A stretch of DNA of 23,002 nucleotides from positions 1 to 23,002 of the IMG/VR virus record IMGVR_UViG_3300010297_000089; one strand, 5' to 3'. Position 1 is the stretch's first letter, and each line of letters begins with the position of its first letter. This DNA is from a virus. This document shows, piece after piece, positions 2 through 21,430 of this stretch. The translations under genes and the position numbers were made by a program. The notes beneath the pieces were generated by a model. The model was not told where the DNA came from. It searched no databases and saw nothing but the letters and a program-made list of their open reading frames with translations.

Positions 2-3000
2 CAAGAATTGGTTGACGAATCTGTATATTTTGTAAAAGTATTAAACAATACTACTGTTCAGATTCATAATACTTTTGGAGATTCGATATCTGGTGTTAAC
101 ACAGTTGGATTTACTACTATTGGAACATCTGGCATTCAAAAGTTTAAAACAAAAATATCAAATACACTATCAGAAATTAAAGTTTATGATGGTGGAGAAG
201 GATTCACAAATAGAAATTTAAGAGTTAATCCATCTGGTATATCAACTTATAAAAGTACTATTAATTTTGTAAATCATGGATTTTCAACAGGAGAAATAGT
301 AACTTATAATTATCAAACTAGTCCAATAACTGGAATATCTACAAACAATCAATACTATGTAATTAAACTTACTAATAATGCTTTTAGAATTTGTGATGCT
401 GGAATTGGTGCGACTATTAGGGAAAATTATGAAAAAAATAATTATGTAAAATTTTCTAGTACTGGATCAGGATATCAAATCTTCAATTATCCACCAATAT
501 CAGTAACTGTAAATTATAATTCAATAGGAGTTGGTACAACGGCAATTAGAGGTACAATAGTTGCAACTCCAGTAGTTAAAGGTGGAATAGTTGATACTTA
601 CGTATATGAAAAAGGATCTGATTATGGATCTAAAGTATTAAATTTCCATAAAAAACCATCAATAAAGGTTGAAGAACCCAATCATGCTCAAATAAAACCC
701 ATTATTAGTGATGGAAAAATAATCAAAACCCTGATTCTTTATTCCGGATCTAAGTATAGTTCTACCCCAGACATTGCTGTTATAGGAGATGGTACTGGGG
801 CTAAATTAAGGGGTATTATAGGATCAAACGGAAAACTTTCCTCGATAATTGTAGTTAATCAGGGATTTGGATATAGTGAAGAAAAAACATCAATTTTAGT
901 TAGATCTCTCGGACAGAATGTAATTTTTAATCCTAATGTAAGAAGTCTATCTATAAATCAAGGATATAAGTATGGTATACAAGGAGCATTTGGTAGAGAA
1001 GTTGCAAATGAGTTATTATATAAATCTGATAAAGGATTGCAATATTTTGTATATGCATATACTAAAAAGATTCAAGATTACTTTAATGATACGGGAACAA
1101 CACATTCACCAATAATTGGATGGTCTTATGATGGTATTCCAATATATGGACCATACGGATATACGGATCCTTATAATTCAAATACATCACCAAAATTAAT
1201 TTCTACTGGATATGGTACAACTACTATTGTAAATAGACCTTCTGAGTTTGAAATTGGATTTTTTAAGGAAGATTATGCATTTAATGGGGAAGGTGACTTA
1301 GATGAACATAATGGTAGATATTGTGTAACCCCAGAATTTCCAAATGGAACCTATGCTTATTTTGCAACTTCAGAATTAAATGTTCTTGGAGAATTAACTG
1401 GAAAGTTTCCGTATTTTATTGGAAATCATTTTAGATCAAAATTTATATCTGATAATATAAATTTAAATCAATCTACATTTGATTTAAATAATTCAGGTTT
1501 GTTTAGAAATACCTTACCATATAATGTTAATGATCAATATGCTGGGAATGACTTTATTGTCGAATCAAATGAACTAATTAACCAAACTGCACAAATTGAG
1601 TCTGTCAGTCGTGGTGAAGTAACATCTTTAAAGATTATAGAATCAGGAGATAATTACAAGGTATCTGACAGATTGAATTTTGATGAATCTAATTCCGATG
1701 GATTTGGAATCAATGCCCAAGTTTCGGAATTAAAAGGTAGACAAATTGTTGAAATTAATACAAATAGAATTACTTATCAGAATGTTGTTGTTACTAGAAA
1801 AAATAATAAAAAACTTGAATTTAGAATAGATCCATATCATGAATTTAATAGTGGTGATAATATTAATATTTCAGGAATAACTACAGATTTATTCACTCTA
1901 AATGGTCAATATAAAATAGGATTTACAACTTATACTTCATACACCACCAAGTACATTCCACCGGCAGGTAGTACTGGTATTGTAACATTCATGACTTTAC
2001 CTTTCATTCCCGAAAATATTTCTATAGGAAGTAGTATCAAAATTGAAAATGAAGTTGTAGAAATCCTTGATAAATTTGATATTCAAAATACATTAAAAAT
2101 TAAAAGAGTTGGATCTGGTGTATCTCATGCTGAAGGAACTTCGGTTTATTTCTTACCCAATTCGTTTGAAATTGATAAAGATACTGATCCGTTCAATTCC
2201 AAAAATACTACAAAAGTGTATTTCAATCCAAGAAATACGTTGGGGATTGGAACTACATCAGGTGGTGGAGATAATAGAAGTTATTGGATAGATGGTGTAA
2301 AATATTACACATTTACACCAACCCAATCAATATTCATACCAAAACATCCATTTAGAACTGGACAAAAACTTACTTTTAGAAAGCAGTCTGGAACTTCTGG
2401 ATTAACAATAAGAGACGAAAGTGGAAATACTTCTATATTATTATTATCATTGAGTCAGACAATGTATGCTATTAATAAGTCTAAAGACTATATTGGAATT
2501 GCTACTAGTAGAGAATCTGCAGTAACTGGTAATGGAGTATTTTTCCCTGGACCAACAGGAACAGATAATGAGTTTTATACTATCGAATCATCAGAAACGC
2601 AAATTCTTTGTGATGTAAATAAACTTGAGTCTACAATAGTAACTACATCTGAACATTTACTTCAGAAAAATGATCAAATAGATCTCATAATTAAACCAAA
2701 TTTATCTGTTGGAATTGGAACTACAACTGCAATAAAATTAAGATATAGTGATCAGTCAAAGTCTTTGTTAGTACATAAAACTTTAATCGAAAATGTTAAT
2801 ACCTCCACGAATACTATAGGTATAACATCACATTTATTTAATACTGGCGATTTAGTTTATTATGATTCTGAAGATACTGTTGCCGCTGGATTGGTCACAG
2901 GAAAATATTATGTTTGTAAGATAGATCATAACAATATTAAATTATCTACAAATTACTATGATTGCTTTTTAGATTCACCAAAAACTGTGTCTATTACTTC

Positions 3001-6000
3001 TAGTGGAGGTAATTTACAAGAACTTTGGTTTGTTAATCCAAAATTAAACTTTGTAAACAACAATAATATTATATTTGATGCTACAGATCCATCATTAGTA
3101 GGGTATAATTTTAATCTGTATTATGATAATAAATTTAACAATAAATTTATATTAGATTTTGAAGACCCGACTCCAATTTTATCGGGAGTTGGAACTTTTG
3201 GGTCGTCTGGATTTTTAACTATTAACCATTCTGGTAGAATTCCACAAAAATTATATTATAATTTAGAAAAAAATCACATACCACAAGATATTGATGAAGA
3301 TGTTATTGATTTTTGCGAGATTGAATTTTCTAATAGTGCTTATAATGGGCGATATAATGTTCATGGAATAGGTTCTACATCATTTAGTATTTCCTTAAGA
3401 AACACTCCAGAAAAATTAAATTATACTAGTTCTAATTGTGATGTTTTGGAATATGTTACAACTTCAAAGTCTGCCAAAGGTCCAATTAATAAAGTAAAAA
3501 TTATTTCTGGTGGATCTAATTATAATAAGTTACCAGTTTATAATGGTGTAATATCTCAAAATGGCGATGGTGCATATATTATACCAAAATCTTTAAGTAT
3601 TGGTAGATTAAATAGATTTAGAATTATCAATGAAGGATTTGAATATTCGTCGGATAAAACTTTAGTACCATTTGCAGAAATTCCAAAAGTAGTCTCACTT
3701 AAAAATTCTAAAAAAGTATCTTTCGTCGATGTTGTTTATGGTGGAAAATATTATCTGACACCACCAAATTTAGTTTTAGTGAATAAAACTACGGGTAAAA
3801 AGATAGATAGTGGACTATTAACTGCAAATTTAAATGGAAATTCAATTGTTAGTGTAGATATTCAAAAAACTCCTGTAGGAATCCCTCTTGAACCCCCCAT
3901 AGTAAGATCTGTAAATAATACTAATGGTATTAAAATTGACACCATTCAAACCTCAGTAACTGGTGTAGGTACAATTTTCTTAGCGACTCCTATTGTAGGA
4001 TTTGCAACATCTCCTTTTGTAACTGGTGATTTCGTTTTTGTTGAGGGTGTCACTAATCATGATCCCGGAATTGGTAATACAATTGGTCTTGGGTTTAATT
4101 CTGCAGATCATGGGTATGAATTTTTTGAGGTTACTAACTATTTTACAGGTTCTAATCCAGGAAAACTTGAATTTAAAATTCCAAAATTATATGGAAATCC
4201 TGGACTAGCAAAAACTGTCCAAGATTCTTTTGCGACGGTAGTAAATAAAACCAAAATGCCATCATTTACAGTTACTACAGAAAAGTCTATTTTCTTAGAA
4301 ACTGAACAATTATATTCCTCCAAAAATGGTCAAGAATTCGAAAAAAGAGATTTATATGTATCATATTCCGATGGAAACTCGGTAAGATTAACTGGTAGTT
4401 ATAATCTAACTATAGGTGAACTCATAAAAGGATCTTATTCATTCTTTACTGGTCAAGTAAGTGATATTGAATCATATGAAGGTGTATTCGACGTTAGTTT
4501 TTCAAAAACAGAGGATATTGGGTGGATTGATGATGCAGGAAAAATAAGTAATGATACTCAGGTAATACAAGATAATGATTATTATCAAAATCTTTCATAC
4601 ACTATTAAAAGTTCTAAGAGTTGGGAAGAGATAGTAACACCGGTTAATAACTTAGTCCATCCTACTGGACTTAAGAATTTTGCAGACATAGAAGTGCAGC
4701 AAAATGCTCAGACTGGAATTGCAACATTTGGTAATAGTCAAATTGAAATTATCAGAGACTGTATTCAAGTTTCTGATGTTACTACTGTTAATAATATAGA
4801 TTTGGTTTATGATATAGAACCTTTAATAGATTCTACAAATATTGTTAAGTTTCAAAACCTTAAACTTGCAGATTACGTTGAGTGTAGAACTAATAGAGTA
4901 TTAGCTATAGATGATATTAGTCCATTATTCTCCAGTATCGAAGACGAGAAAAAATTAGCATACACAATTGTTTCACCATTAAGTATATTAAAAAGACTTA
5001 ATAAAGCTTTAATACAAATTAAAGAGATTGGTGGTAATGACATACAAATATCGGAAATTGTTGTTATTAATGATCCTGATGAATCATTCACTTTACAAAG
5101 AGGATTTGTTTCAAACAAAAATACTTCTATAGGTGATGTAACTGGATTTATTGATGATTTTAGTACATTCTTCTTGAAATTTGATCCGGTAGATACTTTC
5201 AATACAGATTATGAATTAAAAATTTTGAAGACAGAATTCACAACTTCATTTACCGGTATTTCAACTTATAGTCTAGGGATGAATAGACTAATTTCATCTA
5301 ATGCTATAGTTAATCCAGGAATAACAACTACTATAGTATCATTTGAATCTGAAAAATTTGATTCATTCTATACCAGTGTTCATTTTTATGATATTGTGAC
5401 TAATGAAGCAAACTATGTGGAACTTTTTGTCACACATGATAACGAAAATACATATGTAAATGAATTCTATTTTGATAGTAATGATTCTAATTATGGAAAT
5501 TATATTGGATCTTTTGGTGCATCACTATCTAATGGTGTTATAAGTCTTGATTTTGAAAATTTAAATACCAGCAATAAGTACAGATTCTCTAGTAAGACAG
5601 TTGGATTTGGATCAACAGCTGTTGGAATAGAAACATATAGATTTAAATATTCTGGACAACCTGATGGATTAGAGCAAACTGCATTATATGCATCAGAATA
5701 TGTTAATTCAGCATCTAATGTTGATGTAGTTGTTGTAGATTCAAGAAGAATTACATCTTTAAAATCTACCGTAAGAGTTTCTTATGGACAAACATCTGCT
5801 CTACATCAAGTATTGCTTGTTTCAGATAAAATTGATGTATCTACTACTCAATATCCATTCGTATCTATTGGTGCAACATCTGGAATAGGCACATTTGGCG
5901 GATCTATAGATGGATTTGATTTAAAATTAACATTTTATCCAGATGTTACAGAAACAAATGGTGCTAATTTAGAAATTAGAGCATTTACTGAAGAATTCTA

Positions 6001-9000
6001 TGGTGAGTTTGATGAGATTAATATACCACCAAAACTTTTCTATGGACAAGTTACAGAGTCATTTAATATTGCAAAATATTTCGGTTCTAATTCGGAAAGA
6101 AAAGATAGATTAAACTTCACATTAAATCACAATGGAACACCAATATTCCAAAAAGAATTTGATCCATCTGATATTAATGTTTTAGATCGCAATACTCATA
6201 CATTTAATATTACAGACCATTTCTTCAGCACTGGAGAAGAACTTTATTACAGACCTAAATCTACTTATGTTGGTGTTGGAACTGTTGCAGTTGGTATAGG
6301 TACAACTGAAAATTATCTTGGGATAACTACAGATATACTTCCAGAAAAAGTGTATCCAATTAAAATAGATAATAATCAATTTAGATTATCAACAAAAAGA
6401 GAATATGCTCTTGCTGGTATATATGTGACATTTACATCATATGGTGAAGGAAACGCTCATCAACTCGAAATGGCTAAGAAAAATGAAAAAGCATTTATCA
6501 CCGTTGCAAACTTAACTCAATATCCATTGTCATGGACACCAAATTATCAAACATTGCAAAATAACGGTGGATCAATTGGAGTTGGAAATAGTATTTTTGC
6601 TTTAAGTGGAATTAGTAGTGTTGTAATTAGAGATGTAATTAAAATTGATGATGAATATATGAAGATTGTTAATGTTGGATTTGGTACAACGAGTATAGGT
6701 CCTATAACATTTAGTGGAGATGTTCCATTAATTGAAGTGACTCGTGGATTTTGTGGGACTGCATCATCAGCACACACTGATGGGTCTGAGGGTAGAATTT
6801 ATAAAGGATCTTACAATATAACTGGAAAAGAAATATTCTTTACAGATCCTCCAAGAGGAAATATCACGGATCTTGTTGGATTAAATGAAAGTAATCTTGT
6901 TAGGGAAAGAGCAAAATTCTCTGGTAGAGTATTCTTAAGAAAAGATTATACACGAAATACTGTGTATGATAATATTTCTTCAGAATTTACTGGAATTGGT
7001 CAAACATACACATTAACAACATTGGGTGTTAATACTGTAGGTCTTGGAACAACTGCAGGAAATGGACTGATATTTATTAATAGCATTTTCCAAACTCCAA
7101 CTACAGAAAATCCAACTTTAGCAAACTATCAAATTGTTGAGGATCTTAATGTTGGTATTACTAGTGTTATATTCTCCGGTATTACCAGTTCAAATGGTCA
7201 AAAAATAGTTTCTGATTATGACCAAAATCAAAATCAATTACCTAGAGGCGGTCTAATTGTTTCATTAGGATCAACTCCAGGTCTTGGATATGCCCCCCTA
7301 GTTGGAGCAAAAGTTATTACAAGAGTTGATGGGTCGGGAACAATTCAAAGTATAGTTGGTGTTAATACAATTGGGTCAGAATTAAACATCGATTCTGCAT
7401 ATTATGATCATAATGTGGGGGTTTTAGAACTCACTACTGCTGAAGATCATAGATTTGGTGAGACTGGAATTTCTGTCGCAACTAATAGTGTATTTCTGGA
7501 AGGATTGGAATTTAGTTGTTCTGTAGAACACACAGGTATAACATCAACTATTTTCCCATATCCCGGATCAAGTCCATATGGATTTATTTTCCCAGTAATT
7601 GGTATTGCGTCTGATAAAACATTTACTGTTAGAGTGGGGACTAGTACAATTCCACATACTTATGTTGGATCTGGAACTGCATACCCTTATTATTATGATT
7701 TAACCTATGGTTCTGGATATAGAGGTACAGTATCAGTTGCAGTAACAGAAACAGGGCATACTGGGGATGTGGCTACAATAACAGCAACTGTTGGTCTTGG
7801 CGGTACATTGGCGTTTAATATTGTTGATGGTGGTACTGGTTATACAAATCCTCAAGTTGTTGTACCACCACCATCTTATGAATATATGCCAATTACTGGT
7901 ATATCTAGATTAGGTGTTGGAGAAACTACCGAATGTGGAACTGGCGTATTATTAAATCTTGAAATTGGACCAAGTGGATCTACCGTTGGTATTGGTACTA
8001 CATTATTTGAAGTTTCATCATTTAAAATAACTAGATCTGGATTTAATTTCAGGGAAGGTGATGTATTTACTGTGGGTGGATTAGTTACTGATAGAAGTTT
8101 AAGTCAACCGATTGAAGAATTTAAAGTAACCGTCTTAGAAACATTTAGTGACTCTTTTGGTGCTATACAATTGGGTGAAATGAATTATATTGATTCTATA
8201 AGAAATTTACAAGATGGAAAACGAGTAAGATTCCCACTTTATTATAATTCAGAACTTTTAAGCTTTGAATCTAATCCAGAGGATCCAGATTCGTCATTAA
8301 TAGAATTTGATGCACTTTTAGTTATTTTCATAAATGGAATATTACAAGAACCTAAGAAAAATTATAATTTCAGTGGTGGTACAACATTTACATTTACTAC
8401 AGCACCTAAAAAAGAAGATAATGTTTCCATCTTCTTCTATGTTGGTACTAGAGATGACGATAGCATTAGAGTTTCGGTGTCTCAATTCATTGAACCTGGA
8501 GATATTATTCAAATAAACAGTAATAATAATTTACTGGATAGTACAGTTACCCAAAATAATAGAACTGTAGCATTAATTAGCGGATCTGATAGATTGGAAA
8601 CAAATATCTATAGAGAACAGGGAATTGATGAGATTAATCCAAAACCACTGTATTGGACTAGAAAGAAAAAAGATGTTGTTATTAATGATGAAATTATTTC
8701 AAAAGCAAGAGATTCTATAGAACCTCAAGTGTATCCAACGTCTAAAATTATTCAAAATTTCAATATAGATGATACTGATTTATTCATAGATAATGCAGAA
8801 TTCTTCGATTATGAAGAAGGTTTACCAATAGATCCATTTGATTGTTTGATCATAAACGATCAAGATGTAAGAGTTGCTGGTGCAGTTACAGCTATAGTTT
8901 CTGCTGGTGGAACAATCAGTTCTTTAGATATTGTAGATGATGGTGATGGATATAGTGGATCTTCAGTTCAGGTAAAAATTTCAGCTCCAAAAAGAATTGG

Positions 9001-9676
9001 TGTTGGGATAGGAACCACAGCAACTGCAACAATAGAAGTATTGGGTGGCAAATTAACCAACAATGTAACAATTACTAATCCCGGATTCGGTTATACCAGA
9101 ACAAATCCCCCAAATGTAATTGCACCCTTCCCCCAAGGATCTACGGAATTGATTAAAAATATATCAATTGCTCAAGGATTTGATGGAGTTATTACAGGAA
9201 TTGCTGTAACTGATGGATTAAATGGTGCATCGTTAGCATTAGAATTTAAAATTGTTAGAGATCCTGCTGTATATACTGATTTAAATATTGGATATCCAAT
9301 TTATATTAATAATACTAGAGTTGGTAGTGGAGTTACTTCTATTGAATATAATGATAATGATACTGTTGCCATAGGAACTGCATTTTTAGATAATATCTAC
9401 CACATTCACGGTATCAATAAAACTTTGGGAATAATTACTTGTAATGTTGCATCAGACACTAGTATTGTTGGTATTGCCACTACAGGAACTGTTTCTTATC
9501 CTGTTGGAACTTTCTCATGGGGAAGATTATCTGGATTCTCTAGGTCAAATCCAGTATCAATAGCTGTTACTGGTAAAACTCTTGATGTTGGACTGTCAAC
9601 TTTTGCAAGTGTTCAAAGGAGAGGAACTGGATTAAGAAATGTCGGACCTTTGAAAAAGCGGGTAATGGGATTATAA
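2..9676 (+). CDS. Giant virion structural protein (putative baseplate/tail protein), 5' end missing
   Basis: The reading frame is open at the left edge and runs 3224 codons to a TAA at 9674-9676. The TTG at nt 8 is only the first possible start inside the window; the true start lies upstream. The protein is a chain of beta-rich modules with no membrane segment that I can see. Counting residues from nt 8, a YHYH-type domain lies at about 342-471, and modules of the type H-x-F-x-T-G-[DE] ... Y-[YP]-[VI] are at about 90-131, 936-988 and 2062-2137. About a dozen G-x-G-Y-like repeats are scattered along the length. A FINGILQEP segment, frequent in marine phage tail proteins, is at about 2776-2784. 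The C-terminus (GTFSWGRLSGF, then VQRRGTGLRNVGPL) resembles the end of large structural proteins in marine T4-like phages. Directly before gp8, it holds the place of T4 gene 7 (baseplate wedge), but I cannot show homology to gp7. Baseplate or tail-fibre attachment is inferred from position. Confidence 0.8.
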   Translation, partial: QELVDESVYFVKVLNNTTVQIHNTFGDSISGVNTVGFTTIGTSGIQKFKTKISNTLSEIKVYDGGEGFTNRNLRVNPSGISTYKSTINFVNHGFSTGEIVTYNYQTSPITGISTNNQYYVIKLTNNAFRICDAGIGATIRENYEKNNYVKFSSTGSGYQIFNYPPISVTVNYNSIGVGTTAIRGTIVATPVVKGGIVDTYVYEKGSDYGSKVLNFHKKPSIKVEEPNHAQIKPIISDGKIIKTLILYSGSKYSSTPDIAVIGDGTGAKLRGIIGSNGKLSSIIVVNQGFGYSEEKTSILVRSLGQNVIFNPNVRSLSINQGYKYGIQGAFGREVANELLYKSDKGLQYFVYAYTKKIQDYFNDTGTTHSPIIGWSYDGIPIYGPYGYTDPYNSNTSPKLISTGYGTTTIVNRPSEFEIGFFKEDYAFNGEGDLDEHNGRYCVTPEFPNGTYAYFATSELNVLGELTGKFPYFIGNHFRSKFISDNINLNQSTFDLNNSGLFRNTLPYNVNDQYAGNDFIVESNELINQTAQIESVSRGEVTSLKIIESGDNYKVSDRLNFDESNSDGFGINAQVSELKGRQIVEINTNRITYQNVVVTRKNNKKLEFRIDPYHEFNSGDNINISGITTDLFTLNGQYKIGFTTYTSYTTKYIPPAGSTGIVTFMTLPFIPENISIGSSIKIENEVVEILDKFDIQNTLKIKRVGSGVSHAEGTSVYFLPNSFEIDKDTDPFNSKNTTKVYFNPRNTLGIGTTSGGGDNRSYWIDGVKYYTFTPTQSIFIPKHPFRTGQKLTFRKQSGTSGLTIRDESGNTSILLLSLSQTMYAINKSKDYIGIATSRESAVTGNGVFFPGPTGTDNEFYTIESSETQILCDVNKLESTIVTTSEHLLQKNDQIDLIIKPNLSVGIGTTTAIKLRYSDQSKSLLVHKTLIENVNTSTNTIGITSHLFNTGDLVYYDSEDTVAAGLVTGKYYVCKIDHNNIKLSTNYYDCFLDSPKTVSITSSGGNLQELWFVNPKLNFVNNNNIIFDATDPSLVGYNFNLYYDNKFNNKFILDFEDPTPILSGVGTFGSSGFLTINHSGRIPQKLYYNLEKNHIPQDIDEDVIDFCEIEFSNSAYNGRYNVHGIGSTSFSISLRNTPEKLNYTSSNCDVLEYVTTSKSAKGPINKVKIISGGSNYNKLPVYNGVISQNGDGAYIIPKSLSIGRLNRFRIINEGFEYSSDKTLVPFAEIPKVVSLKNSKKVSFVDVVYGGKYYLTPPNLVLVNKTTGKKIDSGLLTANLNGNSIVSVDIQKTPVGIPLEPPIVRSVNNTNGIKIDTIQTSVTGVGTIFLATPIVGFATSPFVTGDFVFVEGVTNHDPGIGNTIGLGFNSADHGYEFFEVTNYFTGSNPGKLEFKIPKLYGNPGLAKTVQDSFATVVNKTKMPSFTVTTEKSIFLETEQLYSSKNGQEFEKRDLYVSYSDGNSVRLTGSYNLTIGELIKGSYSFFTGQVSDIESYEGVFDVSFSKTEDIGWIDDAGKISNDTQVIQDNDYYQNLSYTIKSSKSWEEIVTPVNNLVHPTGLKNFADIEVQQNAQTGIATFGNSQIEIIRDCIQVSDVTTVNNIDLVYDIEPLIDSTNIVKFQNLKLADYVECRTNRVLAIDDISPLFSSIEDEKKLAYTIVSPLSILKRLNKALIQIKEIGGNDIQISEIVVINDPDESFTLQRGFVSNKNTSIGDVTGFIDDFSTFFLKFDPVDTFNTDYELKILKTEFTTSFTGISTYSLGMNRLISSNAIVNPGITTTIVSFESEKFDSFYTSVHFYDIVTNEANYVELFVTHDNENTYVNEFYFDSNDSNYGNYIGSFGASLSNGVISLDFENLNTSNKYRFSSKTVGFGSTAVGIETYRFKYSGQPDGLEQTALYASEYVNSASNVDVVVVDSRRITSLKSTVRVSYGQTSALHQVLLVSDKIDVSTTQYPFVSIGATSGIGTFGGSIDGFDLKLTFYPDVTETNGANLEIRAFTEEFYGEFDEINIPPKLFYGQVTESFNIAKYFGSNSERKDRLNFTLNHNGTPIFQKEFDPSDINVLDRNTHTFNITDHFFSTGEELYYRPKSTYVGVGTVAVGIGTTENYLGITTDILPEKVYPIKIDNNQFRLSTKREYALAGIYVTFTSYGEGNAHQLEMAKKNEKAFITVANLTQYPLSWTPNYQTLQNNGGSIGVGNSIFALSGISSVVIRDVIKIDDEYMKIVNVGFGTTSIGPITFSGDVPLIEVTRGFCGTASSAHTDGSEGRIYKGSYNITGKEIFFTDPPRGNITDLVGLNESNLVRERAKFSGRVFLRKDYTRNTVYDNISSEFTGIGQTYTLTTLGVNTVGLGTTAGNGLIFINSIFQTPTTENPTLANYQIVEDLNVGITSVIFSGITSSNGQKIVSDYDQNQNQLPRGGLIVSLGSTPGLGYAPLVGAKVITRVDGSGTIQSIVGVNTIGSELNIDSAYYDHNVGVLELTTAEDHRFGETGISVATNSVFLEGLEFSCSVEHTGITSTIFPYPGSSPYGFIFPVIGIASDKTFTVRVGTSTIPHTYVGSGTAYPYYYDLTYGSGYRGTVSVAVTETGHTGDVATITATVGLGGTLAFNIVDGGTGYTNPQVVVPPPSYEYMPITGISRLGVGETTECGTGVLLNLEIGPSGSTVGIGTTLFEVSSFKITRSGFNFREGDVFTVGGLVTDRSLSQPIEEFKVTVLETFSDSFGAIQLGEMNYIDSIRNLQDGKRVRFPLYYNSELLSFESNPEDPDSSLIEFDALLVIFINGILQEPKKNYNFSGGTTFTFTTAPKKEDNVSIFFYVGTRDDDSIRVSVSQFIEPGDIIQINSNNNLLDSTVTQNNRTVALISGSDRLETNIYREQGIDEINPKPLYWTRKKKDVVINDEIISKARDSIEPQVYPTSKIIQNFNIDDTDLFIDNAEFFDYEEGLPIDPFDCLIINDQDVRVAGAVTAIVSAGGTISSLDIVDDGDGYSGSSVQVKISAPKRIGVGIGTTATATIEVLGGKLTNNVTITNPGFGYTRTNPPNVIAPFPQGSTELIKNISIAQGFDGVITGIAVTDGLNGASLALEFKIVRDPAVYTDLNIGYPIYINNTRVGSGVTSIEYNDNDTVAIGTAFLDNIYHIHGINKTLGIITCNVASDTSIVGIATTGTVSYPVGTFSWGRLSGFSRSNPVSIAVTGKTLDVGLSTFASVQRRGTGLRNVGPLKKRVMGL
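1030..1420 (+). other. YHYH-type domain inside the giant protein
   Basis: The segment carries YDGIPIYGPYGY (around nt 1127-1162), then DEHNGRYCVTPEFPNGTYAYF-like sequence (about nt 1300-1362) and GKFPYFIG (about nt 1399-1422). This order of motifs is the hallmark of the YHYH domain family known from bacterial secreted proteins and some marine phage structural proteins. The biochemical role of the domain is not established; a surface-binding role on the virion is an inference. Confidence 0.75.
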
Positions 9677-9698: not shown

Positions 9699-11291
9699 AT
9701 GTCCGCAATTGTAACAGATCAATTTAGAATACTGAACGCCTCCAATTTCGTAAATTCCATTGAAACTGGCAGTGATTCATATTATGTCTTTGTAGGACTT
9801 CCAAACCCTCAGTCGAATGATGGTCCTGGAAGAAATGAAAACTGGGATAGACTTGATATCCCGGACCCCAATTTGGCAGTTGTTCCAAATCCTGTTGATA
9901 ATTTCTCATATCTAGATCATTATGGGCAGATGTCATTATTTGGTAAAAAGATAACTGGATCTACAATAAGAAGAGCTGTAAGAAGAATTGATTGGACGCA
10001 GGGAACTAGATATGAAATGTATCGACATGACTATAGTGTTATAAATCCTTCCCCAAACTCCAATAGTAATAGATTATATGATACCAATTACTATGTGATG
10101 AATTCTCAATACCAAGTATACATCTGTATAGATAATGGATCTTCTGGAATTAATACAAATGGCAACCAATCAAAGGATGAACCAGTATTTACAGATTTAG
10201 AACCATCAAGAGCAGGGGAAAGTGATGATGGATATCTTTGGAAATATTTGTATACCGTTACTCCTAGCGACATTGTAAAATTTGATTCAACTGAATATAT
10301 CACCATTCCAAGTCAATGGGAAACATCTACAAACCCCCAAATTGTCTCTGTGAGAGAAAATGGAGATTCTTCTATAAACGAAAATCAAATTAAAAAAGTT
10401 TATATTGAAAATACCGGAAAAAATTATTCTTCAGGAGAAGTTGATATTTTAGGTGATGGAACTGGTGGAAGAGTTTTTATAGATGTTAATGAAAATGGAG
10501 AAATTACAACTGCTTTGGTAACTTCTGGTGGATCTGGATATAGTTATGGTATAGTTGACCTTGGACCTTTACAACCTTCAGGAAGTTTACCATATCCGGC
10601 AAACTTAATTCCAATTATCCCACCATCTAGAGGTCATGGATATGATATTTATAGGGAACTGGGAGCGGATAAACTTTTAATTTATACTAGATTTGATGAT
10701 TCTACCAAAGATTTCCCAGTTGATACAAAATTTTCTCAAATTGGTATTGTAAAAAATCCAACTAAATTTATTTCAACGGAAACTTTTGTTGAAAGTCAGT
10801 TTTCAAGTTTGTATGCACTAAAAGTTACTCCAACGTCTAACAATATACCAGAAATTGGTGAAAAAGTCTCACAAGATACTGATGGTACTGGAAATAGAAT
10901 TGCCGTTGGATATGTCGCATCATATGATACTGAAACTAAAGTTTTAAAATATTTTAAAGATAGATCTTTATATTATAATCCATCATCCTATGATACTAGG
11001 GATTATTTTGATGTCTCCGTAAAGGCGAATGCTACTATAGATTTTGTTTATACTGGAGGATCAATATCTACTCCTAGTGGATTTACGGCATCTATAGATA
11101 ATTTTAGTGGGATTTCAACAGTTCCAACAAATAGTACAAAAATAGTAAACTTAGGAACTGAATTTCAAAATGGTGTATCTCTACCAGAGATAAATAAAGA
11201 ATCGGGGGATATTATTTACATCGATAATAGACCTTTAATTTCTAGAAATCTTAGGCAAAAAGAAGACGTTAAAATTATCCTGGAATTTTAA
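9699..11291 (+). CDS. gp8: gp8-like baseplate wedge protein
   Basis: This is a 530-residue protein homologous to T4 gp8, a baseplate wedge subunit that acts in the tail baseplate with gp6, gp7, gp10, gp11, gp25 and gp53. Visible matches to T4 gp8 are the N-terminus (AIVTDQFR against T4 AIVTSKFR), the central DDGYLWKYLY ... EYITIP stretch (T4 GDGYVWEYLF ... EYIVVP), QIGIVKNP (T4 ISIITNP) and the C-terminus IIYIDNRPLI ... IILEF (T4 MIYMENRPPI ... ILFTF). T4 gp8 has 334 residues. The extra length lies mainly at about residues 230-290, which contain two G-x-x-Y/G-S-G-Y repeats, and between about 355 and 500. ATG at 9699 is chosen because the protein starts in register with T4 gp8. No clear Shine-Dalgarno sequence is visible. 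It lies 22 bases after the giant gene and 3 bases before the DUF4815 gene. Confidence 0.93.
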   Translation: MSAIVTDQFRILNASNFVNSIETGSDSYYVFVGLPNPQSNDGPGRNENWDRLDIPDPNLAVVPNPVDNFSYLDHYGQMSLFGKKITGSTIRRAVRRIDWTQGTRYEMYRHDYSVINPSPNSNSNRLYDTNYYVMNSQYQVYICIDNGSSGINTNGNQSKDEPVFTDLEPSRAGESDDGYLWKYLYTVTPSDIVKFDSTEYITIPSQWETSTNPQIVSVRENGDSSINENQIKKVYIENTGKNYSSGEVDILGDGTGGRVFIDVNENGEITTALVTSGGSGYSYGIVDLGPLQPSGSLPYPANLIPIIPPSRGHGYDIYRELGADKLLIYTRFDDSTKDFPVDTKFSQIGIVKNPTKFISTETFVESQFSSLYALKVTPTSNNIPEIGEKVSQDTDGTGNRIAVGYVASYDTETKVLKYFKDRSLYYNPSSYDTRDYFDVSVKANATIDFVYTGGSISTPSGFTASIDNFSGISTVPTNSTKIVNLGTEFQNGVSLPEINKESGDIIYIDNRPLISRNLRQKEDVKIILEF

Positions 11292-17200: not shown

Positions 17201-18776
17201 AACATCTTCGGTTTCATCAAATACTGGTGAAAATGCAAGAATTACCATAACTGGAAATAATAACTCTATAGATACATTATATCTAACAAACGTTCAAGGT
17301 GATTCTTTTGTTAATGGTTCTAAATTGGTTTATTATAATGATTCCAATGTCAGAGTTTCTTTAGCCAATACTTATATTAGGGGGGCATCTGTAGAAGAAG
17401 GTGGTATTTATAGTGGACATCATATAAAAGTAGATCATTTTGATCATGGAATGTATGCAAGTAACAATAAAGTAACCTTATCTGATGTTTCATCTAATAT
17501 AGCACCCGTTTTATTGTCTTCCAGTATGACTACATCGGATGTAGAAGTAAATGTTTCTATTGCAGATACTTCGGCATTTGGAATGTTTGAAGGTGTTCCA
17601 GTGAGTGCTCTTAACCCAGGGTATTTAAAAATTAATAATGAAATTCTCCAGTATACTAATGTAGAACCAGGATTACTATCTGGAGTAACAAGGGGGCAAG
17701 ATAATACGGTTGCTTTCCCACATAGTGTAAATTCTTCAGTTTATAAGTATGAAGTTAATGGAATATCTTTAAGGAGAATCAACACAACTCATGATATAAG
17801 TTCTATTGGAATGGATATTGATAGTTATCATTTAGAATTAGATCTTCAATCTAACGGTCCAGATAGACGTTATGACGGACTTATTGATGGATTTGGTGGA
17901 AATTATCCAAAAACATCATTTAATTTGGAATCATCGGTTGGAGGAAGATCTGCATATGGAACACAAAACATAATTTATAATTCTGTAATACCGGTATATC
18001 AAGTTCTAAATCCAGGATCATCAACTAACTTTAGTGCTCAAATTAGAACTGTTAGTGGTACGAGTGTTGATGGAACCGAACTATCTTTTGTTGATAAAGG
18101 ATATGAAAATGTATTATTAAATGCAGAGAATGCTCTTAATTCTACAAGAATTGTATGTTCAAAAACTAATGAGTCAACACACTTAACTGGAATACCAAAT
18201 AATAAATCATTTATAACGGCAATCACGTTAAATACCAGAAATGCTTTCCTTTCTCCAATGATTTTCTTGAATACTGCATTTACTGAATTTGTTTCTGCAA
18301 GACTGAATAAACCAGTTGCAGATTATATTAATAATGGGAGAGTTAATTCAATTAATGATGATCCCCATGCTGCGATATACGTTTCAAATACAATTAGACT
18401 ATCTCAACCATCAAACACATTAAAATTATTCCTATCAGCATATAGAAATTCATCTTCTGATATTAGAGTTTTATATAGTTTGGTGAGACCAGATTCTAGT
18501 GAGGTGAAACAATCTTTTGAACTATTCCCAGGATATAGGAATTTAACTATTGATAGCAATCAAGATGGTTATTTGGATGTTGTTGATACATCCAAAAACA
18601 GTGGTTTGCCAGATGTATTTGTTCCTTCAAGTTTGGAAAATGAATTTTTAGAATATCAGTATACTGCACCAAATGTTGGACCATTTATTGGATTTAAAAT
18701 CAAAATTATAATGTCTGGTTCCGATCAGGCAAATTATCCAAGAATTAAAGATTTAAGAACAATTGCTTTAGCGTGA
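11295..18776 (+). CDS. Large DUF4815-type virion structural protein
   Basis: A 2493-residue protein. The N-terminus (NLNVSPYFDDFD ... PGRPIQTRELNTLQ ... SYDSRFYAVKL) and SPGKAYVRGYDVEKTG at about residues 356-371 are typical of the DUF4815 family of phage structural proteins. Further segments familiar from large structural proteins of marine T4-like phages are YTMRDIGKIENRVENLE near residue 1108, a probable short coiled coil; EQPFATRVENVNPF near 1236; FYQFFDGNGSVDF near 1380; DPLAQTFVV near 1655; and PRIKDLRTIALA at the end. A Ser/Thr/Asn/Glu-rich linker lies at about 1325-1370, and an Asn-Val-Thr repeat at about 1622-1650. SGA-type modules, one G-x-G-Y segment and one VTRG ... H module are present. 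It occupies the position of T4 genes 9-12 and wac, so a role in the baseplate periphery or in fibre attachment is likely but inferred. The ATG at 11295 follows gp8 by 3 bases. Confidence 0.85.
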   Translation: MAQKTNLNVSPYFDDFDSGKDFYKVLFNPGRPIQTRELNTLQSILQNQIESFGSHIFKEGSVVIPGGISYDSRFYAVKLNPTAFNIDISIYIKNFIGKKIKGQASGITASIQHVEFPNGGDIDYLTIYVKYQESDTDFVASQFIDGEGLSCVENVVYGNTTISAGTVFASLISENATSIGSAASVNSGIYFVRGTFARVLKQTLVLDYYTNTPSYRVGLQIIEDVISAKDDPSLYDNAKGFSNYAAPGADRFKISLVLTKRELSDYSSDTDFVELLRVNDGLVQKIQSKSEYSIIKDYLAQRTYDESGNYSVTPFTVTVNNSLNNRLGNDGLYFDNEQTDSGNDPNDDLMCIKVSPGKAYVRGYDVEKTGTTIIDVEKPRDKNLVSGIGVPFEMGNLIRVNNVSGCPTERSTIDLYNRRILDSNSVKIGDGRVYTFNLTDAAYANDATSWDLYLYDIETYTKLTLNNSLSDSQLVSSSFIKGKSSGATGYTIASGGGSAEITLTQVSGSFISGEPILINGVELDSRVIKNIKNYTIEDVKSVIQTGSPAFNADTVLIAASAPGFSSQDQITVKTDGTITSPNKLFSGISTDSIFQYSIPGFSTVTYNRVTSISADGLSLNVTSVPTVLGVCVGDLPASELTSRFSIVSPRILNSENAYLFTKLPSSDIATVDLENSNLSFSAQSNINSTVSSNTLTITPADFDLPSGLSDAIFQAYDEERYSIHYTDGTVETLTSDEVSVSASSVVFSGISNKTIHKINATFIKEGIQSRVKTYYKSRILGVSLSKYKTSGSGISTSIVDGLTYNPYYGLRVQDEEISLNYPDVSKVVAIYESLDENPPVFDILNFSASDNVSVNTVVGENIIGTDSNTLARIVRKPNGSPNSLEIVYLNANRFSTTEIVKFEESNIETEIDFIVPGKYKDVTNAFRLDKGQRDQYYDYSRIVRNRGESEPGRKLSVVFDHYLIPESDNGDAFTVYSYSKNRFLRDVPYIGSDQVRASDTLDFRPRVSNFTGSSTSPFVFSSRNFATSPRTILKPNESSVISYEHYLPRVDKLYLDKFGGLIVEKGISSIEPKEPLKDDTVLEIASIYLPPYLYSPKDAKITTIENRRYTMRDIGKIENRVENLEKVTSLSLLELNTQSLQIRDADGFNRFKTGFFVDDFRTTNFIDLNLSLSEVNRTTNQLTPLISRNSLESQLVPASNISSSTLDRRSNYKLLDDRVQKTGRLVTLKYTEVDWIEQPFATRVENVNPFHVIDYSGQISLTPTRDTWIRTVQLPSRVLSHNNTLNLQIRTETNRVRLNNVDNRSSAGGGTGLNGRTVTVADTFTTLSSNTTTENRTTRSSDTSTSETEETAFVTQENETFLRSRNTEFVATNLKPHTRFYQFFDGNGSVDFVPKLIEISTDIDLTNDGSVGSFEIGETVFGYFNLENVLRFRVAQPNHKFGPFDDPSDTYDVNPYNRDESLPTLYSPSTKVLNVDTFSLAEAIDGRYIGYVLPQMVLIGSTSGAIAYVKSTRLVSDNYGDLIGSFFIRDPNTTPPPSVRITTGNKTFKLSSSSTNEPARLGSTDLSSAQANYLAEGTVQMYQDIIRRNTITANLDHFETINTTTITATTQTAVSQFNLPPEEINFITNITNNVTNVTNVTNNNVTNLIQQQAQRVDPLAQTFVVGTGIDAPSQQVFTEDVNGVFLTAVDIYFAKKDSGNNPVTVQIRTVELGTPTLTLLGNSVTLRPSQVNISTDGTVPTKFTFDSPIFLPPGLEYAVVILAPESDQYEVWIAEMGEKTINTATLPDAESVRYTTQFAIGSLFKSQNGSVWSSSQYQDLKFKLHKAVFTESSGVVFFENPDLNIGNSYTKKLINNPITTYPRKLRVGVTTITDSGLISELSSGRKISENYKTYNFGYIVGTGSSVSSVEVTDAGRNYVTDSQVSTYNITGKGSGLTLNITASGGQIAGTPTIVNYGNGYAVGDVVGIVTSSVSSNTGENARITITGNNNSIDTLYLTNVQGDSFVNGSKLVYYNDSNVRVSLANTYIRGASVEEGGIYSGHHIKVDHFDHGMYASNNKVTLSDVSSNIAPVLLSSSMTTSDVEVNVSIADTSAFGMFEGVPVSALNPGYLKINNEILQYTNVEPGLLSGVTRGQDNTVAFPHSVNSSVYKYEVNGISLRRINTTHDISSIGMDIDSYHLELDLQSNGPDRRYDGLIDGFGGNYPKTSFNLESSVGGRSAYGTQNIIYNSVIPVYQVLNPGSSTNFSAQIRTVSGTSVDGTELSFVDKGYENVLLNAENALNSTRIVCSKTNESTHLTGIPNNKSFITAITLNTRNAFLSPMIFLNTAFTEFVSARLNKPVADYINNGRVNSINDDPHAAIYVSNTIRLSQPSNTLKLFLSAYRNSSSDIRVLYSLVRPDSSEVKQSFELFPGYRNLTIDSNQDGYLDVVDTSKNSGLPDVFVPSSLENEFLEYQYTAPNVGPFIGFKIKIIMSGSDQANYPRIKDLRTIALA
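15260..15405 (+). other. Low-complexity Ser/Thr/Asn/Glu linker in the DUF4815 protein
   Basis: About 46 codons dominated by Thr, Ser, Asn, Glu and Arg (for example SSNTTTENRTTRSSDTSTSE) with few hydrophobic residues. The segment falls between two better-conserved parts of the protein, so it is probably a flexible or extended linker. Function is inferred only from composition. Confidence 0.55.
16191..16217 (+). repeat. Tandem 9-bp repeat coding for Asn-Val-Thr triplets
   Basis: Three tandem copies of AATGTGACT (the third ends in ACC) at 16191-16199, 16200-16208 and 16209-16217. A diverged fourth copy, AATGTTACT, follows at 16224-16232 after two extra AAT codons, and related ATT-ACA-AAT triplets precede the array. 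The repeat is in frame and codes for N-V-T units, extending an I-T-N/V-T-N region of about 29 residues with a hydrophobic residue every third position. Confidence 0.85.
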
Positions 18777-18976
18777 TGATACCAGTAAAAGGATTTTCAA
18801 ATTTATATCGTGATGAAAATACAGGAGCAATTATTAATTGTGACAGTGTTGAATATGAACAATACATGAGTACAATTAATAGTAGAATCACACAAAAACA
18901 TGAACTTGAATCAATGAAGAAAGAAATGTCCGAAATTAAAACTTTATTAAAGGAGCTTATTAATGGACTTAAATGA
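18776..18976 (+). CDS. Small conserved phage protein with C-terminal coiled coil
   Basis: A 66-residue protein starting at the ATG whose A is the last base of the preceding TGA stop (TGATG), which indicates translational coupling to the DUF4815 gene. A GTG in the same frame at 18773 would add one Met, but the coupled ATG is more likely. No Shine-Dalgarno sequence precedes it. The N-terminal half (IPVKGFSNLYRDENTGAIIN, then CDSVEYEQY) resembles a small hypothetical protein I recall from marine T4-like phages near gene 13. The C-terminal half, about residues 40-66, is rich in Glu, Lys, Leu and Met in a heptad-like pattern and probably forms a coiled coil. It lies where T4 carries wac (fibritin), itself a coiled-coil protein, but there is no visible sequence relation. 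Function unknown. Confidence 0.8.
   Translation: MIPVKGFSNLYRDENTGAIINCDSVEYEQYMSTINSRITQKHELESMKKEMSEIKTLLKELINGLK
18951..18955 (+). promoter_or_regulatory. Strong Shine-Dalgarno site for the 59-codon gene
   Basis: AGGAG is placed 7 bases before the ATG at 18963, an optimal spacing. It is the clearest ribosome binding site in the window and lies inside the end of the preceding gene. It is a main argument that the short downstream frame is a real gene. Confidence 0.75.
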
Positions 18977-19142
18977 AATTTCTTTGGATGATATTAATAA
19001 ATCATTCGAATATGAGAGACAAGCAAGATTTATTGATTCTATGGATAACATTGATGATCTTAAAAATTTTGCAAAACTTTACTGTAAATTATACTTAAAG
19101 CAGCAAGAGGTCTTATCTATTTTTGAAATAAATAGTATTTAG
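18963..19142 (+). CDS. Small 59-residue protein, function unknown
   Basis: A short frame of 59 codons from ATG 18963 to TAG 19140-19142. It overlaps the end of the 66-codon gene by 14 bases in another frame and fills the gap before gp13. An AGGAG site 7 bases upstream supports the start. The protein is charged and predicted helical: an acidic N-terminus (MDLNEISLDDINKSFEYE), then probably a second helix with LKNFAKLYCKLYLKQQE. No signal peptide or membrane segment. I recall similar short proteins beside gene 13 in marine T4-like phages, but no function. The two-helix layout and the LYCKLYLKQQE stretch weakly recall NblA, the phycobilisome degradation adaptor of about 60 residues; this is a suggestion only. 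If it is not NblA-like, it is a hypothetical late protein. Confidence 0.75.
   Translation: MDLNEISLDDINKSFEYERQARFIDSMDNIDDLKNFAKLYCKLYLKQQEVLSIFEINSI
19127..19134 (+). promoter_or_regulatory. Candidate late promoter motif upstream of gp13
   Basis: AATAAATA matches 7 of 8 positions of the T4 late element TATAAATA and ends 29 bases before the gp13 ATG. It lies within the end of the 59-codon gene. gp13 follows a 21-base gap, and no Shine-Dalgarno sequence is seen. The AT-rich composition makes a chance match quite possible. Confidence 0.35.
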
Positions 19143-19163: not shown

Positions 19164-19994
19164 ATGGCAAAACCATCATCTAGGCAAGAACTTATTGATT
19201 ATTGTTTAAGGCGTTTGGGAGCCCCTGTTTTAGAGATTAATGTTGATGATGATCAAATAGATGATCTGGTTGACGATGCATTACAATATTTTAATGAGCG
19301 TCATTTTGATGGCGTTGAAAGAATGTACTTGAAGTACAAAATAACCCAAGGCGATGTTGATAGGGGAAAAGCAGATCCACCAAATGCAGTTGGAATAGTA
19401 ACAACTACTGCAACTTCAACTACCGGAACATCTTTCAATTGGTACGAAAATTCAAACTTTATTCAAATACCAGATTCTGTTATTGGTATTGAAAAAGTTT
19501 TTAAATTTGACACCAGTTCAATCTCTGGTGGTATGTTTAGTATAAAATATCAGTTATTTTTAAATGATTTATATTATTTTAATTCCGTAGAACTTCTTCA
19601 ATATTCTATGGTTAAAAGTTATTTAGAAGATATTGATTTCTTATTGACAACTGATAAGCAGATAAGATTTAATAAAAGACAAAATAGAATGTATTTAGAT
19701 ATTGATTGGGGGGCACAATCACCCGATACATATCTTGTTATAGATTGCTATAGGATTTTAAATCCTACAGAATTTACTAATGTATATAATGATAGTTTTT
19801 TAAAGCAATATTTAACCTCTTTAATTAAGCGCCAATGGGGTCAAAATTTAATTAAATTTAGGGGTGTAAAACTACCAGGTGGAATTGAATTGAATGGTAG
19901 AGAAATCTATGATGATGCAGAAAAAGAATTAGATTCTATTAAATCTAGAATGGCAATGGATTACGAACTTCCACCTTACGATTTTATTGGATAA
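19164..19994 (+). CDS. gp13: gp13-like neck (head completion) protein
   Basis: A 276-residue homologue of T4 gp13 (309 residues), which with gp14 forms the neck that closes the packaged head at the portal vertex and takes part in joining the tail. The N-terminal block DYCLRRLGAPVLEINVDDDQ, followed by DDALQYFNERHFDGVER, is the family signature and is close to the T4 sequence. Further matches are IRFNKRQNRMYLDIDW in the middle, KRQWGQNLIKFRGVKLPGG, and the C-terminal YELPPYDF. The ATG at 19164 puts the MAKPSSRQELIDYCL start in the usual place for marine phage gp13. Its stop overlaps the gp14 start by one base (TAATG), so the two are probably translationally coupled, which suits proteins that act together. 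A candidate late promoter lies just upstream. Confidence 0.95.
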   Translation: MAKPSSRQELIDYCLRRLGAPVLEINVDDDQIDDLVDDALQYFNERHFDGVERMYLKYKITQGDVDRGKADPPNAVGIVTTTATSTTGTSFNWYENSNFIQIPDSVIGIEKVFKFDTSSISGGMFSIKYQLFLNDLYYFNSVELLQYSMVKSYLEDIDFLLTTDKQIRFNKRQNRMYLDIDWGAQSPDTYLVIDCYRILNPTEFTNVYNDSFLKQYLTSLIKRQWGQNLIKFRGVKLPGGIELNGREIYDDAEKELDSIKSRMAMDYELPPYDFIG

Positions 19995-21430
19995 TGGCAT
20001 TAAATCCTTTTTTTCAACACGGTTCAGCAAGTGAACAGAGATTGATACAGCAACTGATCAATGAACAATTGAGGATGTATGGTATTGAAATTGGATACTT
20101 GCCCAGAAAATTTGTAAGAACTAATACAATAATCAGAGAAGTTGTATCATCCAAATTCAACGATACCTTTATGCTAGAGGCTTATTTAAGCACTTATGAA
20201 GGTCATACTGGATCTGGTGATATTCTAACTAAATTTGGAATGAGTTTAAAAGATGAATTAACATTAGTTATATCTAAAGAACGATTTGAAGATTTTATTT
20301 CGCCATTTTTAGAGTCGATGCCTGATGATGAAATTACAGTGTCTTCTAGACCAAGAGAAGGAGATTTAATTTATTTTCCTTTAGGTAGACGATTATTTGA
20401 AGTTAAATTTGTAGAGCACGAAAAACCATTTTATCAATTGGGACAATCATATGTTTATGAACTTCAATGTGAATTATTTGAATACCAGGATGAACTTGGT
20501 GGATATGATGGTCTTGATAGTACTCTAGATGAAATAGATGAATCATTGCAAAATGAGGGATATATTACTGCTCTAGAACTATTCCCATCGGTAACAACTG
20601 CTGAAGTTATTGGCGGAAACAACAATGGATCTACTGGATATGTAAGAAGAATTATAATGAATGATGATGGTTCTGGATATACATCTAGACCTAGAGTTGC
20701 AATTTCTACAGCGCCAGTTGGTGGTACCAATGCCTCAGCGGTTGCAATTACAACTTGCAGAAATGGTGTTTGCTCTATTCAGGAAATACTTTTAACCTCG
20801 ATAGGGTCTGGATATACAGTTACACCTACAGTTACAATTATTGGTGGAGGTGGAGTTGGTGCCGCAGCAACTGCTGAAATTGTAAATACTGCAAATTATT
20901 TTGGATTCTCTCCAACCAGTATCTCTAATGCTGGTAGTGGATATGTTTCAAAACCAACAGTTACTATAGAAGAACCACTTGGAGAACTTGCACCAATAAT
21001 TGATAGAAGACAGGCGTATGCAATTGGTGTCGTTGGAACAGGATCTTCGGTTGGTATTATAACTCAGATATTAATATCAGATGCTGGAATCGGGTATCAT
21101 TCAAATCCAACAGTTACAATATCAGCGCCTCCAGGAACCTCTGGAATTGGTACATTTATCTTTAATGAGGTTGTTACGGGACAAGTTTCAGGTACTAAAG
21201 CAAGAGTTAAAACTTGGAATAGTTCCAATTCAACAATTAGTCTTGGTATGCCATCTGGAGAATTTGTTTTGGGTGAAAATATTGTTGGAGCAGTATCTGG
21301 CGCTAGCTATAGTATTAAAGTTGTACAACCACAATCTTCAATCGATAAATATGAGCAGAACGATGAGATCGAACAAGAGGCAGATCTAATCATAGACTTT
21401 ACAGAATCAAATCCATTTGGAACTTACTAA
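19994..21430 (+). CDS. gp14: gp14-like neck protein with a large beta-repeat insertion
   Basis: A 478-residue homologue of T4 gp14 (256 residues), the partner of gp13 in the neck. The N-terminal part matches T4: EGDLIYFPLGRRLFEV near residue 122, PFYQLGQ near 145, and an acidic stretch after that. The last 29 residues (IDKYEQNDEIEQEAD ... ESNPFGTY) correspond in style to the T4 C-terminus (IDQYAEVDQINAEAE ... FESPF). Between them, about residues 216-446 have no counterpart in T4. They hold four G-x-G-Y repeats (at about 216-241, 262-286, 306-328 and 356-379) and one SGA-type module (about 391-446). The insert also has a close Cys pair in TTCRNGVCS. Both ends of the gene share one base with their neighbours (TAATG), implying coupling with gp13 and gp15. 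Confidence 0.93.
   Translation: MALNPFFQHGSASEQRLIQQLINEQLRMYGIEIGYLPRKFVRTNTIIREVVSSKFNDTFMLEAYLSTYEGHTGSGDILTKFGMSLKDELTLVISKERFEDFISPFLESMPDDEITVSSRPREGDLIYFPLGRRLFEVKFVEHEKPFYQLGQSYVYELQCELFEYQDELGGYDGLDSTLDEIDESLQNEGYITALELFPSVTTAEVIGGNNNGSTGYVRRIIMNDDGSGYTSRPRVAISTAPVGGTNASAVAITTCRNGVCSIQEILLTSIGSGYTVTPTVTIIGGGGVGAAATAEIVNTANYFGFSPTSISNAGSGYVSKPTVTIEEPLGELAPIIDRRQAYAIGVVGTGSSVGIITQILISDAGIGYHSNPTVTISAPPGTSGIGTFIFNEVVTGQVSGTKARVKTWNSSNSTISLGMPSGEFVLGENIVGAVSGASYSIKVVQPQSSIDKYEQNDEIEQEADLIIDFTESNPFGTY
20639..21330 (+). other. Beta-repeat insertion in gp14 (four G-x-G-Y units plus an SGA unit)
   Basis: The four units follow a shared pattern: a hydrophobic strand, [DN]-x-G-x-G-Y, then x(3)-P-x-V-x-I. 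Their cores read DDGSGYTSRPRVAI, SIGSGYTVTPTVTI, NAGSGYVSKPTVTI and DAGIGYHSNPTVTI. The last part (SGEFVLGENIVGAVSGASYSI) belongs to a second module type also seen in the DUF4815 protein. The block separates the gp14 core from its conserved C-terminal tail. Confidence 0.8.

Follow-up and report, generated by a model that had tools for sequence, protein, structure and literature searches.

What does a YHYH domain do inside a phage baseplate? The question is raised by the IMG/VR virus record IMGVR_UViG_3300010297_000089, of which positions 1-23,002 (23 kb) were analysed; this whole stretch of DNA is called the window below. The window opens within the gene of a giant gp7-like baseplate wedge protein, and this protein contains a conserved block related to the YHYH domains of bacterial proteins. 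According to the available text of PMC7824862, the phage YHYH domain is predicted to be a tail-associated metal-dependent hydrolase with three His and one Asp, a prediction that ranks such domains with enzymes for opening the host wall. Judged by alignment and profile matching, however, the block in gp7 is the C-terminal half of a YHYH domain, of common ancestry with the bacterial proteins, and the N-terminal half with its Asp and three His is absent from gp7 or unrecognisable there. We consider the block to be probably a metal-free structural module of the wedge, and not a hydrolase.

The first-pass annotation, made from the letters alone, had proposed a YHYH-type domain with a fixed order of motifs, and both proposals hold. 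DGIPIYGPYGY (1130-1162), NGRYCVTPEFPNGTYAY (1310-1360), and FPYFIG (1406-1423) follow each other in this order in a single frame. A hidden Markov model search matches the Pfam family YHYH (PF14240) at 84.2 bits, far above its curated cut-off of 25 bits, with a match that does not reach the whole profile and covers only its positions 88-187 of 193; a six-frame search with the same family gives a stop-free match of 89.8 bits. In the gp7 copy, the C-terminal half reads HSPIIGW-YDG-PIYG, GDLD--NGR, T-EFP-G-YAYF, and FPYFIG. When 36 gp7 sequences are compared with 45 bacterial sequences as profiles, only the C-terminal halves are joined, with a probability of 95.9.

The metal residues of the published prediction would correspond to a signature of cellular YHYH proteins, D-x4-H...Y-H-x-H. 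Of two cellular sets, one shows this pattern in 75 of its 82 rows and the other in 31 of 31. The larger set comes mostly from one bacterial subfamily and was found by a C-terminal pattern (80 relatives kept of 520), and does not share the circularity noted below for the smaller one; by column, its Asp is conserved in 79/82 rows and each of the three His in 81/82, although seven rows miss the full pattern. The smaller set holds the best 30 loci (29 new ones plus L229) and a Deinococcus protein that also belongs to the larger set. All four residues are present in 31/31 of its rows, a count that is partly circular because the rows were ranked by a profile containing the signature, and in which some rows, cut at an upstream DG, were counted for the N-terminal half only. 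In gp7, neither D-x4-H...YHxH nor HxH occurs in the aligned region of any of 39 or any of 68 rows, the latter being not dereplicated and drawn from contigs that overlap the first set. The only HxH in the 3,224 residues of the window's protein lies at residue 3134, far from the block. No gp7 row thus holds the residues of the published prediction, taken as this signature, and because the signature is absent the predicted metal site does not appear to carry over to the baseplate copies. This argues against the catalytic role, at least of the predicted kind, that had been suggested for the block on first reading.

Within the part of gp7 compared, conservation peaks in the block, by a moderate margin. 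In a first set of gp7 rows, found through the block itself (80 relatives kept of 491), 60 relatives and the window leave 39 rows once sequences more than 90% identical are dropped, and the block averages a pairwise identity of 0.60 vs 0.50 for all other positions among the 1,650 residues compared. Because rows found in this way are a biased choice, a second comparison started from gp7 loci picked by a segment some 1,150 residues downstream, without use of the block (80 relatives kept of 576). Here 68 relatives and the window leave 58 rows by the same rule, and identity is 0.55 in the block vs 0.43 for residues 251-1490 outside it; 36 of 1,096 overlapping segments of block length score at least as high as the block, the best of them starting at residue 368, inside it. 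The strong conservation above the flanks announced by the first-pass annotation is therefore a real excess in both sets, but a moderate and not an extreme one. Its description of the remaining protein as repetitive does not stand, since a self-comparison of gp7 gives no off-diagonal match, and hence no internal repeat, at E ≤ 0.001.

Presence and position of the block are constant in the loci examined. At least 1,160 residues precede the downstream segment in 69 of 80 loci; all 69 contain the block, at a near-constant distance of 1,136-1,313 residues from that segment. A single-sequence search with another gp7 segment returned two loci only. Besides the motif residues listed in Table 1, Asp363, Ser369, Gly373, Trp374, and Asp424 are invariant (39/39) in the first set; in the second, Asn437 and Arg439 are found in 58/58 rows and Ala452 and His368 in 57/58.

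We favor a structural role because the half-domain is near-invariant, occupies a fixed place in every testable gp7 locus, and lacks the predicted metal ligands, and also because the gp7 family is assigned as a baseplate wedge protein and adjoins gp8. As a fixed element of the wedge, having presumably lost metal binding, the block would make protein-protein contacts or present a constant surface. Its constant presence and position and its strong conservation seem to fit such a shared role better than strain-specific receptor binding. Several points weigh against this proposal. High conservation by itself is compatible with structure and with binding alike. The histidine loss is not significantly selective, whether over the whole domain (0/7 His kept vs 18/49 other columns, p 0.08) or in the C-terminal half (0/4 vs 17/31, p 0.10). 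An isolated His near the first motif is present in 8 of 39 gp7 rows, and the alignment places it at two of the three His columns, in one row each. Finally, since the AlphaFold model built on 36 gp7 sequences is poor (mean predicted local distance difference test score, pLDDT, 49.8) and was not used, gp7 might still carry a diverged N-terminal half with other ligands.

These considerations leave room for other functions, which are not all mutually exclusive with a structural one, so that the likelihoods we attach to them need not add up to one. A host-surface binding module on the baseplate, lectin-like or receptor-binding, is conceivable but doubtful. Host-surface binding is proposed in general terms in the available text of PMC7029224, and the bacterial relatives look secreted by eye, with signal-like N-terminal ends; yet receptor-binding parts usually vary, whereas the block is the least variable stretch compared, and a Pfam scan finds no match to a carbohydrate-binding family. 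We regard as unlikely that an ion such as calcium, held by invariant Asp in place of the lost His, stabilises the site. Candidate ligands would be Asp363, Asp377, Asp424, and Asp434 (39/39 rows) and Asp432 (37/39), two of which, Asp377 and Asp434, fall in columns that 81/82 bacterial rows conserve, but metal-free invariant Asp are common in turns, and Asp363 falls below the 95% mark for conserved columns in the second set. As for a metal-dependent hydrolase on the tail that would aid the phage in getting through the host wall, the published prediction speaks for it, as does the full signature kept in the stand-alone phage proteins L115, L116, and L223; with the signature missing from every gp7 row, and also from AOO14285.1, the example given in the available text of PMC7824862 itself, this function is very unlikely for the block. 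A structural module of the wedge, probably metal-free, is thus our preferred reading.

The descent of the block was approached through its cellular relatives. The nearest cellular sequence found, a Bacteroidia protein (L341), is 45% identical over 119 residues and has the same motif order; it has HSPLIG, NGRFCVTPEYPNGTYAYF, and the PY-G ending in common with gp7 and keeps DCSKGHPAMGNYHHH upstream. The Deinococcus protein WP_239051980.1 is 44% identical to the window over 91 residues. Unlike gp7, both contain a complete domain with the signature, in free-standing proteins of 326-444 residues. An early reading, in which seven conserved histidines had been exchanged in the phages, was given up: the 82 bacterial rows behind it come mostly from one subfamily, NGR and YAYF are native in L341, and the column test for selective histidine loss was not significant. 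As they already occur in this bacterial protein, the nearest to the window, these motifs are not phage inventions, which leaves the first-motif signature as all that gp7 lacks. Within the class to which Mariniflexile belongs, taken here as Bacteroidia, matches at E ≤ 1e-20 are present in 132 of 395 genomes. On a plasmid of Deinococcus sp. KNUC1210 (L137:991-3067), a YHYH gene lies directly before a gene of the HupE/UreJ family, an arrangement that could point to metal handling.

A tree built from the C-terminal half (73 rows, 124 columns) groups the gp7 copies in one clade with support 100/91; the bootstrap had not settled and many forks are unresolved. The tree does not resolve how the phage types relate to one another or to the bacterial subfamilies, and therefore does not show the direction or the number of transfers. 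The bacterial domain was modelled with confidence (45 sequences, the first L145:3001-3738; pLDDT 87.5). Against the PDB, Foldseek gives 91 matches to this model at E ≤ 10, of which none reaches E ≤ 0.001, VIA-align places 0 of 349 chains at Z ≥ 2, and PDB sequence searches return chance-level matches only (best E 0.24, 0.26, and 0.068). The bacterial YHYH fold may be new to the PDB, though a missing match is weak evidence. In a viral structure library, the same model has eight matches at E ≤ 0.001, of which three are nameless and five are named YHYH or YhyH (S-RIM14, P-TIM40, an uncultured Caudovirales phage, Megaviridae, and Mimiviridae ChoanoV1). More tentatively, a bacterial metallo-domain with a fold unmatched in the PDB might have entered T4-like marine phages, where stand-alone proteins preserved all of it, while in gp7 it shrank to a metal-free, near-invariant half with a new, purely structural or binding function; we hold this wider scenario to be possible rather than probable.

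The domain is not new and is ordinary in cyanomyoviruses, as its counts across phage records show. When the block is compared by tblastn with 50,697 phage records, 463 contain a match, and the names of 462 mark them as cyanophage or marine (first word Synechococcus in 372, Cyanophage in 61, Prochlorococcus in 24, Marine in 5, and Actinomycetia in 1); a further gp7 segment finds 399 of the 50,697, a list not matched one by one to the 463. Each of the first 18 records scanned has one PF14240 match. Among ten further, diverse records, nine have one to four matches, 22 in total, spread over gp7, other giant structural proteins, and stand-alone proteins; Bacillus phage G has none. One record already uses the product name 'YHYH domain-containing protein'. 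In S-SKS1 (NC_020851.1, L085), the gp7 block at about 136267-136662 lies in a 1,601-residue open frame without an annotated gene, either a missed or a broken gp7.

The window itself carries a partial structural module of a T4-like phage, as seen from its open reading frames and their Pfam and PHROG matches (Table 1). The giant protein matches phrog_2885, 'baseplate wedge subunit', at 2,599 bits (residues 2-2475 on profile positions 858-3357 of 4179). The gp8 gene follows directly 3' of it; gp6, which lies just upstream in relatives, would fall outside the window. The window also has a gene for a 2,493-residue protein with DUF4815, two small frames, and genes that match head-tail adaptor, head closure, tail sheath stabiliser, and small terminase families. 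The virus is likely of cyanophage type, because its sheath stabiliser is closest to a marine single-cell virus (61%) and then to Synechococcus phages (≤55%). The IMG/VR contig 3300006810_000520 has an identical block. The name 'gp7' serves here only as the annotation name of the giant protein: by the available text of PMC7029224, these phages have no T4 gp7. The available text of PMC3037559 describes gp7 as highly divergent among non-cyanophage T4-like phages.

Table 1. Coordinates of the block, its parts, and the surrounding wedge genes in the window
Feature	Position	Strand	Evidence
Giant gp7-like baseplate wedge protein, 3,224 aa (amino acids) in window, 5' end cut off	2..9676	+	Open frame; phrog_2885
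Stretch expected to hold the N-terminal half with the Asp/His/His/His signature; signature absent	902..1087	+	Alignment, profile comparison
Conserved block, gp7 residues 345-488 (window numbering)	1034..1465	+	Conservation above flanks, two row sets
Pfam YHYH (PF14240) match, profile 88-187 of 193	1088..1387	+	hmmscan 84.2 bits, E 1.5e-23
HSPIIGWSYDGIPIYGPYGY motif	1103..1162	+	Asp377, Gly378, Pro380, Ile381, Tyr382, Gly383 in 39/39 rows; His368 in 37/39
DLDEHNGRYCVTPEFPNGTYAYF motif	1295..1363	+	Leu433, Asp434, Asn437, Gly438, Arg439, Tyr451, Ala452, Tyr453 in 39/39 rows
FPYFIG motif	1406..1423	+	FPYF and Gly in 39/39 rows; Ile in 36/39
gp8-like baseplate wedge protein, next gene	9699..11291	+	PF09215 Phage-Gp8 47.8 bits; phrog_438

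Some further features of the window were noted in passing. Residues 235-292 of gp7 (704-880) resemble residues 226-282 of gp8 (10374-10544), with 34% identity over 58 residues (E 2.9e-5), which may reflect a small module common to both. Residues 200-369 of the head-closure protein (19994-21430) and residues of about 238-318 of the tail sheath stabiliser (21430-22479) contain matches to giant structural or tail fibre protein families, as if virion proteins shared modules. The apparent gap before the head-tail adaptor gene (18773-19142) holds two overlapping frames of 67 and 59 residues on the + strand. No Rfam family and no transfer RNA was found in the window.

In the open-access literature, the only phage papers on YHYH found were PMC7824862 and PMC7029224, and the missing signature of the gp7 copies was not found in print. 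The available text on the experimental evolution of S-TIM4 (PMC6224464) reports mutated tail and baseplate genes and ties no mutation to the YHYH domain; the accessible parts of the virion proteome papers PMC9602691 and PMC10665884 do not mention the domain, though no search there aimed at YHYH. What appears to be new is that the gp7 type has the C-terminal half only, and that the printed enzyme prediction would misfit the baseplate copies examined. If these copies have no predicted metal site, a shared domain name does not entitle them to a hydrolase function. The label 'YHYH domain-containing protein' would then lump possible enzymes, the stand-alone proteins, with probably structural parts, those of gp7 and the giant virion proteins.

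Among known phages, the gp7 'baseplate wedge subunit/initiator' of Prochlorococcus phage P-SSM2 (YP_214343.1) and Synechococcus phages S-T4 and S-SRM01 is the same giant protein, with a block 48.6-53.7% identical at the same place. Compared with these cyanomyovirus proteins, the window has DGI in its first motif, against DGN in 38 of 39 rows of its clade, and is otherwise an ordinary member. Other aligned phage copies lack the signature in 10 of 12 cases. AOO14285.1 of S-RIM14, the giant 'structural protein' used as exemplar in the available text of PMC7824862, was located in KX349303, and 666 residues around its domain were examined; its C-terminal half is like that of gp7 and is likewise without the signature, but it belongs to another type of giant protein and has an EYAHLSNP remnant near the first motif.

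The stand-alone phage YHYH proteins have the C-terminal half in common with gp7 and, unlike it, keep D-x4-H...YHYH and most of the profile. The signature is kept in three of them, from S-SSM4 (L115, matching profile positions 10-184), ACG-2014d (L116), and S-RIM14 (L223, AOO13635.1); places at least 60% identical to L115 occur in 64 of the 463 phage records. In AOO13635.1 (L223:427-1851, cut at the locus end), the complete YHYH domain is followed by a stretch that by eye looks like an alpha/beta-hydrolase (HGAGG, GSSNGG), and Pfam calls only YHYH in its 475 residues. In S-SSM4 L108:1618-5082 (1,154 residues) and Actinomycetia phage DSL-LC01 L141:2180-3550 (WJZ48554.1), a stretch that by eye resembles a cupredoxin interrupts YHYH; its His ... 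Cys ... His ... Met could be a copper-ligand pattern, though Pfam calls only YHYH in both. The stand-alone and the baseplate copy, one with the signature and one without, form a clear pair for comparison.
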